This document shows, piece after piece, positions 50,882-54,580 of a DNA stretch of 64,000 nt; within the stretch, counting starts at the first letter, position 1; each line of letters begins with the position of its first letter. Source of the DNA: Halococcus agarilyticus. Lineage in GTDB: Archaea > Halobacteriota > Halobacteria > Halobacteriales > Halococcaceae. The notes beneath the pieces were generated by a model. The model had not been told where the DNA came from and did not search any database. It saw nothing but the letters and a program-made list of their open reading frames with translations. A program made the translations under genes and the position numbers. Location of the stretch: assembly GCF_000334895.1 (NCBI RefSeq), contig NZ_BAFM01000004.1, forward strand, positions 1 to 64,000, in the 5' to 3' direction.

Positions 50882-51364
50882 TCAGAGGAAGTGGACGAGC
50901 ACCATTGTCACGAGCATCGTCACGGTCAGGAGCGCCTGGATCACCGTCGAGGCGAGCATCCCGATGGCGGCGTAGATCGCGGTCCGGAGGCTCTGTTCGG
51001 GGTCCTGATGGCGGTAGAACTCGACGACAAAGACCGTCCCCATCACGCCGACGATGACCCCGAGCGGGCCGGCGACGAAGAAGAGGACGATGCCGACGAC
51101 CGCCGCGAGCACGGTCGTGACCGTCGACGCGCCGCCGGCACGGGCCGAGACCGCACCGGCGAAGTAGTCGGCGAGAACGCCGATGAGGCCCACGATCACG
51201 AGCACGACGAGCAGGATCGGGCCTGGCTCGGCGTAGCCGGACTGCCACCAGTAGAGCAGAACGCCGGCGATCGACAGCAGCGCTCCCGGCAGCAGTGGGA
51301 CGACGCTGCCGGCGACGGCGACGACGAGGAGTACGAACGCGGCGATCGCGAGGAGTTCGACCAT
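50882..51364 (-). CDS. DUF456 family membrane protein
   Basis: 160 aa with about five transmembrane helices and the DUF456 pattern VPLLPGALLSIAGVLLYWW near the start and ADYFAGAVSARAGGAS, then a Gly-rich FFVAGPLGVIVG helix. The family is of unknown function, found in bacteria and haloarchaea. The N-terminus begins directly with the first helix (MVELLAIAAFVLLVV). It is divergent from the riboswitch-crcB unit, with 100 nt between its start and the riboswitch. Confidence 0.88.
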   Translation of the reverse strand: MVELLAIAAFVLLVVAVAGSVVPLLPGALLSIAGVLLYWWQSGYAEPGPILLVVLVIVGLIGVLADYFAGAVSARAGGASTVTTVLAAVVGIVLFFVAGPLGVIVGVMGTVFVVEFYRHQDPEQSLRTAIYAAIGMLASTVIQALLTVTMLVTMVLVHFL

Positions 51365-51433: not shown

Positions 51434-51517
51434 CGATATACCGTGGCTCCGCAGAGGAGCTATCGGGCGATGGAGTCCACCTGCTCCAACCGCTGGGTTC
51501 CCAGCTGATGACTCCTT
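51434..51517 (+). promoter_or_regulatory. Promoter and fluoride (crcB-motif) riboswitch
   Basis: A TATA-like GATATACC (51435-51442) is followed after about 23 nt by the aptamer, 51465-51517. Conserved pieces in order are GGCGATGGAGT (51466-51476), CCAACCGCTGG (51486-51496) and AGCTGATGACTCCT (51503-51516). GGAGT (51472-51476) can pair with ACTCC (51511-51515), the long-range pairing of this class, and GCTGG/CCAGC forms the small hairpin with GTTC loop. The short stem GGCGA/CCACC has two imperfect pairs. A TTTT run follows directly. It ends 12 nt before the crcB start codon at 51529. Fluoride binding would switch on expression of the exporter genes. Confidence 0.88.
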
Positions 51518-51528
51518 TTCGAGCATCC

Positions 51529-51921
51529 ATGCACGACACTCGGCTCCTTCGCACGATCGAGGCCGCCACGCTGATCGGCATCGGCGGGTTTGCGGGGTCG
51601 AACCTCCGGTATCTCGTAGCACGCGTGATTCCCGGGCCCGGTGGAACGCTCGCCGTCAACGTCGTCGGGAGCTTCGTGCTCGGGTTCGTGCTCTACGAGG
51701 CGATCTACGCCGGCGTACTCGCCGAGCGAACCCGGGTCGTCGTCGCCACCGGCTTCCTCTCCTCGCTGACGACCTACAGTACGTTCGCACTCCAGACCAC
51801 GCTGCTCGCCGAGCCGGTGTGGATGGTTGCGAACGTGCTCGTCACCTACTGCCTCGGATTTGCCGGGGTGCTCGCGGGCCGCAGCCTCGCCCGGCGCGTC
51901 GACGGGGGGACTGGCGAGTGA
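51529..51921 (+). CDS. crcB: Fluoride channel/exporter CrcB (Fluc), first subunit
   Basis: 130 aa with four predicted transmembrane helices. Fluc motifs: GIGGFAGSNLRYLV (G-x3-G-x3-R-Y), TLAVNVVGSFVLG with the pore Asn, and SLTTYSTF with the fluoride-lining Thr/Phe region. The ATG at 51529 is preferred because an earlier in-frame ATG at 51508 lies inside the riboswitch TGATGA segment. It overlaps a second crcB gene by GTGA, the normal arrangement for heterodimeric fluoride channels. It protects the cell from fluoride. Confidence 0.94.
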   Translation: MHDTRLLRTIEAATLIGIGGFAGSNLRYLVARVIPGPGGTLAVNVVGSFVLGFVLYEAIYAGVLAERTRVVVATGFLSSLTTYSTFALQTTLLAEPVWMVANVLVTYCLGFAGVLAGRSLARRVDGGTGE

Positions 51922-52283
51922 TTCCACTCGACCCAGCCTACCTCGTCGGCACCGGCGGAGCGCTCGGGGCGCTCTGTCGAACCTACGTGGGCCGGCACGT
52001 CGAGGGCGAAACCTACCCGCTCGGAACGCTCGCGGTCAACGTTCTCGGGAGCTTCGTGCTCGGGCTCGTGACGTTCGCTGGCGCTGGCGAGGAGATCGTC
52101 TTACTCCTCGGAACTGGCGCGTGCGGATCGTTCACCACCTTTTCGTCGTTCTCGTTCGAGACGGTTCGGCTCGTGGAGCAGGGCGAGTCGGCCGCGGCGG
52201 CCGCAAACGGTGCCGTGAATCTCGTCGGCTCACTGGCGGCGATCGGCGTCGCGTGGCTCGCGGTGCGGATCGTTCTCGGGTAA
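51918..52283 (+). CDS. crcB: Fluoride channel/exporter CrcB (Fluc), second subunit
   Basis: 121 aa from a GTG overlapping the first crcB stop. Motifs GTGGALGALCRTYVG, LGTLAVNVLGSFVLGL and SFTTFSSFSFE match Fluc. The two subunits share the NV-GSFVLG and FTTFS-type motifs but differ elsewhere, as expected for a heterodimer whose halves insert in opposite orientation. The first helix begins almost at the start codon. It lies under control of the upstream fluoride riboswitch. Confidence 0.93.
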   Translation: MIPLDPAYLVGTGGALGALCRTYVGRHVEGETYPLGTLAVNVLGSFVLGLVTFAGAGEEIVLLLGTGACGSFTTFSSFSFETVRLVEQGESAAAAANGAVNLVGSLAAIGVAWLAVRIVLG

Positions 52284-52315: not shown

Positions 52316-54580
52316 TCAGTCGTAGCGATCGCGTTCCTCGTGGGCCACCCGGTCGCCGTACCGATCGACCAGCGGCCGGTAGGCGTCGCCGAGCGCGCGG
52401 AGGCACTCGCGGGTCGAGACGTAGCCGAGGTCGTTGGCGACGCGCTCGACCGGGCGACCCTGGAGGATTCGGGCGACGACCAGACGCTCCTCGCGGGCCG
52501 AGAGATGGCTACTCTCGGGATCGGTGAGATGGACGAGTGCGAGCCGGCGAAAGGCGTCGGGGTCGATGGCGGCGAGACCCGGCCCATACGCTGCGGCTGC
52601 GATCGTCCGCCACTCGTGGGCCGAGAGATCGAGCGGTGTCGTGACGGCGCTCGCAGCCATGACTGTGCGGACGATGTCGGGATCGAGGTCGGCGAGCGAG
52701 TCGGTCAGCAGGCCGCCGATCCGTCCGACGAACCACCGAGCGTGGCGGTCGCGGAGAGCGTGGCCAGACTCCGAGAGCGGTGCGAACATGAGCGCGGAGT
52801 GTTCGCCGCTGCGGTCGTTGCGGGTGATCGCGAGGTGAACAGGTGAAAAACCGTTGCGAGCCCAGAACCGGACGAGTTGGGGCGTCGCACCGTAGCCGAC
52901 ACCGAGCCAGTCGATTTCGTCGTCCTCGCTCGCCGAACGAATCTCGTCGAGCAGTCGTGAGCCGAGCCCGCGCGATCGAGCGGCGGGATGGGTGGCGATC
53001 CGGAGCACGCGCCGGCCGGTCGTGACTCCTGCTTCGAGGTCGCGACATTGGCTGGTGAGCACGTCCGGGAGGAGGTGGCCCTCGATCCGATTTCCTTCGT
53101 ACACCGAGCGCCGGAGATCGGCAGAAAGGCCGCCTTCGCGGGCGAGCAGCGCGACCGACACCACGTGGCCGTCGTGACACAGCGCGTGCACGGTGACGTT
53201 CGGTGCGTCGAGCAGTCGCGCGAGGTCGTTCGGCTCCGTCCGGTAGTGGGCCGCGACGAGGAGTCCGAACGCCTCTCGAAGCTCCACCTCGTCGGCGAGC
53301 AACTCGTCGGCCGAGAGGCGTTCGTGGGTCACGGTCTCGGGCGTGGCCTCGGCGACCAGCGACGCGACGGACGGGCGCGCGTCGAGCAGGAGGGCTCGAA
53401 AGAGCCATACCTCGATCGGATCGCCGGCGGCGTACCTGATCGGATCGTCGAGACGTTGCTCGGTCACGTCGAACGCGCTTTCGGCGAGTCGGTCCCGAAA
53501 CCGGACCGAGAACCCCCGCCCCGCCCCCTCGTAGCCGTGGACGGTCGTGACGAACGCCACCGCGGGGGCGTCGAGGAACGTCGCGAGTCGGTCGACGGGC
53601 AGTGCGGCGGCCTCGTCGACGATGGCGACGTCAGCGGTAGCGAGCGCTTCGTCTTCGACGGCGGCCGCCGGCTCCGCGAACCGTACCCGCCCGCCACCTG
53701 GCGTGTCGAGGCACTGTGGGTTCTCGTCGCGGTCCGTGCCGGCGAGCGCATCGAGGGTTTCGAGGAGTTCGCGCGCCCGCTCGAACACGGCGGCGGCGCT
53801 CCGGTAGCTTGGTGCGGTCACGAGAACCTCGTTCCCCTCGGCAGCCAGCGCGCCCGCGGCGAGGCCGGCGGCGCTCGACTTCCCGCGGCCGCGGTCGGCC
53901 TCGACGACGAGTGCGTGACCCTGCTCGCGGAGACGTTCGAACACCTGGACAGCGTCGGCTTGGTCGGCCGTGAGACAGGCGTCGTAAGTCGCCTGCGGGA
54001 ACGAGTGGTCGCTCGGTGGCGCTGGTGGCTGCCGCTCCGTCGCCACCGGTGGGTCGGTAAGACCATCACGCTCGATAGTTCCGGAATCGACATCGACGAT
54101 CGCGATTCCAGGGTGAGCGCGGAGCGTCTCGACGAGCCAGGTCCGGAACCGACCGCCGACAGCCTCGCCGTCGAACGGTGGGACAGCGAGCGTCTCGTCG
54201 AAGCCGTCCCGCCGATCGGGCCACGCATCGAGCGGCGGCGTACAGAGCACGACGAGACCGCCGCCGTCGACCGCACCCACGGTGCGGCCGAGCGCGTTCG
54301 GCCGGCACTCGTCGTGACAGTCGAGCACGACCGCCGTTCGAGTTGTTCCGAGGAGCGCATCGGCGCGCTTCGGGGTGACGCGCTCGCAATCGCGGAAATC
54401 GGCTCCGTTCGCGGCCTTCGTCGCGACGATCGTCGTCTCGGAGGCGGGAACGCCCGCACCGTCGAGCGCGTCGGTCGCCGCCCGGTAGCTCGCCTCGCGC
54501 TCGCCCGCGAGCACGAGCAGCCGGCGCTCGTTCGCGCGGCGGGCTTCGTCGCGGAGCGCGGCCGCGAGGTCGGCGATCAT
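52316..54580 (-). CDS. tmcA: tRNA(Met) cytidine acetyltransferase
   Basis: 754 aa. Domain order: N-terminal DUF1726-like domain (about 1-130), an RNA-helicase-like ATPase with Walker A VEADRGRGKSSAAGL and Walker B VAIVDEAAALPVD, a GNAT domain with the acetyl-CoA loop RIATHPAARSRGLGSRLL, and a C-terminal tRNA-binding region. TmcA makes N4-acetylcytidine in RNA, in bacteria at the tRNA-Met wobble position, and in archaea homologues modify many RNAs. Full length with no lesion. The 32-nt gap to crcB is convergent. Confidence 0.94.
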   Translation of the reverse strand: MIADLAAALRDEARRANERRLLVLAGEREASYRAATDALDGAGVPASETTIVATKAANGADFRDCERVTPKRADALLGTTRTAVVLDCHDECRPNALGRTVGAVDGGGLVVLCTPPLDAWPDRRDGFDETLAVPPFDGEAVGGRFRTWLVETLRAHPGIAIVDVDSGTIERDGLTDPPVATERQPPAPPSDHSFPQATYDACLTADQADAVQVFERLREQGHALVVEADRGRGKSSAAGLAAGALAAEGNEVLVTAPSYRSAAAVFERARELLETLDALAGTDRDENPQCLDTPGGGRVRFAEPAAAVEDEALATADVAIVDEAAALPVDRLATFLDAPAVAFVTTVHGYEGAGRGFSVRFRDRLAESAFDVTEQRLDDPIRYAAGDPIEVWLFRALLLDARPSVASLVAEATPETVTHERLSADELLADEVELREAFGLLVAAHYRTEPNDLARLLDAPNVTVHALCHDGHVVSVALLAREGGLSADLRRSVYEGNRIEGHLLPDVLTSQCRDLEAGVTTGRRVLRIATHPAARSRGLGSRLLDEIRSASEDDEIDWLGVGYGATPQLVRFWARNGFSPVHLAITRNDRSGEHSALMFAPLSESGHALRDRHARWFVGRIGGLLTDSLADLDPDIVRTVMAASAVTTPLDLSAHEWRTIAAAAYGPGLAAIDPDAFRRLALVHLTDPESSHLSAREERLVVARILQGRPVERVANDLGYVSTRECLRALGDAYRPLVDRYGDRVAHEERDRYD

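Follow-up and report, generated by a model that had tools for sequence, protein, structure and literature searches.

Organization of the locus

The window – the whole 64,000-nt stretch of DNA analysed here (positions 1–64,000, forward strand, of Halococcus agarilyticus contig NZ_BAFM01000004.1, assembly GCF_000334895.1) – carries two crcB genes preceded by a short leader that contains a fluoride riboswitch aptamer, with a TATA-like element upstream (Table 1). Both open reading frames match PF02537 and the start of crcB2 overlaps the stop of crcB1 by 4 nt (GTGA), in keeping with the gene pair described in the initial annotation. On the minus strand, a gene for a DUF456 membrane protein (50882–51364) points away from the promoter region of the crcB genes, and a gene for a TmcA-like tRNA(Met) cytidine acetyltransferase (52316–54580) converges on crcB2.

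Table 1. Features of the crcB leader and operon (window coordinates).
Feature	Position	Strand	Basis or remark
TATA-like promoter element GATATA	51435–51440	+	Sequence; AT peaks in 73 leaders
Fluoride riboswitch aptamer	51457–51524	+	RF01734 match (Infernal/Rfam), 40.9 bits; gathering score 34
P1 stem-loop GGCGAUGGAGUCCACC	51466–51481	+	Loop contains 5' pseudoknot strand, 51472–51477
P3 stem-loop GCUGG-GUUC-CCAGC	51492–51505	+	Sequence; apo fold
3' strand GAUGACUCC	51507–51515	+	Includes the ligand-site junction; base-pairs with 51472–51477 as 3' strand of the pseudoknot; would double as 5' arm in the alternative hairpin
Proposed expression platform GAUG-a-CUC / CUUUUC loop / GAGCAUC	51507–51527	+	Fold; family complementarity
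crcB1, fluoride channel subunit, predicted N-in/C-in	51529–51921	+	PF02537, 69.6 bits; K+R bias
crcB2, fluoride channel subunit, predicted opposite topology	51918–52283	+	PF02537, 90.6 bits; TIGR00494 over cut-off; K+R bias

The distribution of lysine and arginine (K+R) was compared in 73 homologous pairs, with segment limits drawn by eye on the window proteins. K+R residues in the N-terminus, loop 2 and C-terminus of CrcB1 outnumber those in loops 1 and 3 combined in 72 of the 73 pairs; for CrcB2 the bias is reversed relative to CrcB1 in 69. Because the bias is opposite, the two subunits are predicted to have opposite fixed topologies: this supports the view, already taken in the initial annotation, that CrcB1 and CrcB2 form a heterodimeric fluoride channel.

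Every leader motif quoted in that annotation was found, in the order stated. The match to the Rfam fluoride model, which exceeds the gathering score, spans the full model (1–64) with an E-value of 6.8e-8 in the window search and 9e-10 per genome. No other Rfam family rises above its cut-off in the window, and a search of the whole 3.48-Mb genome with RF01734 returned this match and no second. The GGAGT/ACTCC pairing is intact, the pseudoknot strands (51472–51477 with 51510–51515) being fully paired. Three of the four P1 pairs are standard (G51466-C51481, G51467-C51480 and G51469-C51478), so that the short stem has one imperfect pair, C51468·A51479, and not the two formerly counted. Among 73 distinct aptamer-bearing leaders (a set that we assembled together with 54 riboswitch-free crcB leaders) this mismatch is private to the window genome, and it could weaken ligand binding. 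The element adds a member to an already known riboswitch class and, as judged from its sequence, is a predicted fluoride binder.

The same 73 leaders have AT-rich peaks at positions −34 to −30 and −16/−15 from the aptamer core. The TATA sequence of the window, at −30 to −26, lies in nearly the same place, which agrees with the TATA box proposed previously. The peaks would fit a TATA box plus a −10 element; transcription should therefore start within a few nucleotides of the aptamer, putatively at about 51460–51465 in the window.

Distribution and variation of the aptamer

That fluoride riboswitches form a class associated with crcB, and that they occur in archaea, is well documented (PMC4247193; PMC8241225). 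A search of the available papers found no account of haloarchaeal fluoride riboswitches, which does not prove that none exists. Among 392 sampled haloarchaeal genomes, 66 contain a match to the fluoride model (E≤0.001), 34 of them over the Rfam cut-off: the scarcity of riboswitches in haloarchaea that the initial annotation pointed out does not extend to the fluoride riboswitch. Nearly all matches precede a crcB1-crcB2 pair. Since crcB is present in 379 of the 392 genomes, nearly always in two copies, the gene pair is unremarkable, and the riboswitch common though patchily distributed. Within the genus of the window, eight of ten genomes have the aptamer arrangement, the window's score being the lowest; one genus-mate (G208) has a crcB pair with no detectable aptamer.

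The long-range pseudoknot GGAGU/ACUCC is backed by compensatory variants across the 73 leaders. Pair 3 is A-U, G-C, C-G or G-U in every leader, and pair 5 is standard in 71, including U-A and C-G forms. Covariance model, conservation across genus and class, and pseudoknot covariation together uphold the identity of the element as a fluoride riboswitch.

A variant form of the aptamer belongs to one family, here termed f4. Thirty-two genomes have sub-cut-off matches only, and all but two of these belong to f4. The f4 pseudoknot strands are GGGGCC and GGUCCC in place of GGAGUC and GACUCC: pairs 3 and 5 are altered on both sides and pair 4 becomes G-U. A U-to-C change is found at the ligand-site junction, and P3 is longer in most of these aptamers. 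This compensated variant mostly scores below the Rfam cut-off. In a crcB1 tree built from few columns and with many open forks, the variant arms form one clade (SH-aLRT 100) with decayed copies scattered within it. Five f4 leaders (L104, L110, L115, L116 and L120) resemble stages of aptamer decay, some retaining just the 3' half of the aptamer beside the AUG.

Several unusual arrangements were also seen. Two genomes of different genera carry tandem fluoride aptamers (L031:1054–1123 and, on the reverse strand, L032, with the aptamers of L006 and L004 downstream). Behind the first aptamer of each tandem comes a 68-aa protein that probably has two membrane helices; this protein matches no Pfam family, and no relative of it was detected among 117 further genomes of the family. 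Aptamers scoring 53.9 and 49.7 bits (L007:1501–1565 and L013:1501–1565) have no intact crcB behind them, the former being followed by an apparent broken crcB start and the latter by no crcB. In MAG SW_9_67_24, a close relative, the aptamer runs directly into crcB2-like and then crcB1-like sequence (L071:1935–2150), which reflects either recombination between paralogues or an assembly error. One further match (L070), sitting within a permease gene, was read as a false positive.

The leader between aptamer and start codon

The distance from the last CC of the aptamer to the AUG is short: 13 nt in the window and 11–20 nt (median 15) across the 73 leaders. The pre-AUG stretch is complementary to the 3' arm of the aptamer. 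The alternative hairpin formed by these two segments has a mean energy of −10.2 kcal/mol in native leaders vs. −5.7 kcal/mol in shuffled ones. Some of these sequences are related, and 29 representatives, which lessen the effect of kinship but do not remove it, give −9.1 kcal/mol vs. −5.4 kcal/mol for shuffles (p=4e-6) and −6.0 kcal/mol with riboswitch-free crcB leaders (p=6e-5). The aptamer 5' strand served as a negative control: it has no excess complementarity to the pre-AUG linker (p=0.95), and pairing between the two was rejected.

Pairing between linker and 3' arm extends over 10 bp in L060, 9 in L063 and 8 in L002, and occurs in several registers; in several leaders (L003, L010, L022 and L054) complementarity is not in excess. 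When linkers were compared with both arm types, the better fit was to the type of their own aptamer (p=0.02 among representatives, 7e-4 in the full set). In L036 the aptamer and a CAGCCAGCC-AUG are separated by a linker of 87 nt (1726–1813) that holds an inverted repeat resembling a strong hairpin; the arrangement looks like an insertion that left the complementary stretch in place.

The apo fold predicted for the window contains P3 and the hairpin GAUG-a-CUC/GAGCAUC, which stops 1 nt before the AUG and is mutually exclusive with the pseudoknot. Taken alone, the window hairpin fits the family pattern but is suggestive, not significant (p 0.05–0.07 in the comparison with shuffles, 0.14 with control leaders). 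By calculation, the start region is 2.4 kcal/mol harder to open in the apo form than with an engaged aptamer (1.5–3.4 kcal/mol in the genus); neither molar salt nor the energy of the pseudoknot itself enters these values.

A proposed start-site switch and its alternatives

Together these data point to a fluoride riboswitch that takes up almost all of the short 5' leader in front of a crcB1-crcB2 operon for a predicted heterodimeric channel and that most likely acts as a translational ON switch, a reading that we hold with good confidence; fluoride binding, the direction of switching and the translational level are what we infer. Without fluoride, GAUGACUCC (51507–51515) would pair with GAG-CAUC (51521–51527) just before the crcB1 AUG, and the resulting hairpin would both block the pseudoknot and occlude the start site. 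With fluoride, formation of the pseudoknot GGAGUC/GACUCC would exclude this hairpin and give the ribosome access to the crcB1 AUG; the 4-nt overlap probably couples translation of crcB2 to that of crcB1. Pairing that is exclusive with the aptamer covers the initiation region, and its excess over both shuffles and control leaders is family-wide. The aptamer has an AUG of its own at 51508, which in the window is in frame; its use as start codon was considered and rejected, as it is missing from 44 of the 73 arms and in frame in only seven.

The mechanism leans clearly to translation because T-runs are rare and because the pre-AUG leader is complementary to the 3' arm. The run of four T residues said to follow the aptamer at once is present in the window (51516–51519), and oligo-T (oligo-U) termination exists in archaea, as would suit a transcriptional switch in which fluoride binding prevents early termination at this run. 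The run, however, is not conserved: the longest linker T-run reaches at least four in just six of the 73 homologous leaders, whereas complementarity ahead of the AUG is family-wide. Termination is therefore very unlikely, and a T-run terminator was rejected. Sequestration of a classical Shine-Dalgarno (SD) sequence, as presumed for Thermococcus kodakarensis, would have the aptamer CUCC hide SD-like purines and not the start-codon region. Strong SDs stand just after the aptamer in several other archaea. In the genus, seven distinct leaders, the window's included, bear an aptamer, and five of them have a GGAG able to pair with CUCC 6 nt before the AUG; the window, by contrast, has GAG only. SD-like tetramers show no enrichment (7/73 riboswitch leaders vs. 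6/54 riboswitch-free crcB leaders). With 66 riboswitch leaders lacking such a motif, and five of the seven exceptions being the GGAG of this one genus, SD sequestration was rejected as the general mechanism and we consider it quite unlikely.

Alternatively, CAGCC could be a conserved motif for translation initiation that has nothing to do with switching and that accounts for the pre-AUG complementarity, CAGC(C)AUG being the commonest pre-AUG form. Yet CAGC(C) abuts the AUG in 44 of 73 riboswitch leaders and is nearly absent from riboswitch-free ones (3/54; p=4e-11), while other leaders have different pre-AUG sequences that pair in other registers, and linkers match their own arm type; this explanation is highly improbable. 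A separate concern is whether the window copy is a decaying or locked remnant of a class that functions in relatives but not here. Its private C·A mismatch and lowest score in the genus, the aptamer-less genus-mate and the decayed f4 copies all speak for decay; against it, the core is otherwise intact, as are the pseudoknot and the crcB pair, and the score stays above the gathering cut-off. On balance such decay appears unlikely.

Extending the start-site switch to haloarchaea at large, we consider it somewhat better than an even prospect that they use a widespread natural riboswitch with a clamp close to the start codon, free of any Shine-Dalgarno sequence and co-evolving with the aptamer 3' strand, and that the f4 clade has reshaped the aptamer into a form that the Rfam cut-off mostly misses. 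If confirmed, two parts would be new: the start-site platform poor in SD motifs and the variant aptamer of f4. In Haloferax volcanii 72% of protein-coding transcripts are leaderless (PMC4983044). A short natural switch conserved in haloarchaea that are genetically tractable would allow a direct test of the way translation starts on leadered, SD-poor mRNAs, and of the way an RNA dependent on magnesium and fluoride functions at molar salt.

Relation to known systems

The window element shares its aptamer core, pseudoknot and association with crcB with the fluoride riboswitch class (RF01734), and differs from it in being haloarchaeal, in the private C·A pair of P1, and in having a short linker with a start-site hairpin and no bacterial-type terminator. 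The fluoride riboswitch of T. kodakarensis (Speed et al. 2018) was called the only experimentally determined natural archaeal riboswitch in a 2021 paper (PMC8241225); in the transcript map of that organism the aptamer lies upstream of TK0513 and not directly before crcB (PMC4247193). As the T. kodakarensis switch is summarized in the 2021 paper, it and the haloarchaeal leaders are alike in being archaeal and natural, with translational control of fluoride export presumed in T. kodakarensis; relative to that summary, the haloarchaeal leaders differ in mostly lacking an SD-like motif and in being able to form a hairpin beside the AUG. Synthetic theophylline riboswitches tested in Hfx. volcanii keep the start region covered until their ligand binds and function at high salt, much as proposed here, but they are engineered, need both SD and AUG to be buried and respond to a different ligand (PMC8241225). 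The window CrcB proteins, finally, belong to the same family as the dual-topology Fluc/CrcB channels (eLife 2013, PMC3755343); unlike those homodimers, the pair has opposite fixed charge biases and is predicted from sequence to assemble as a heterodimer.
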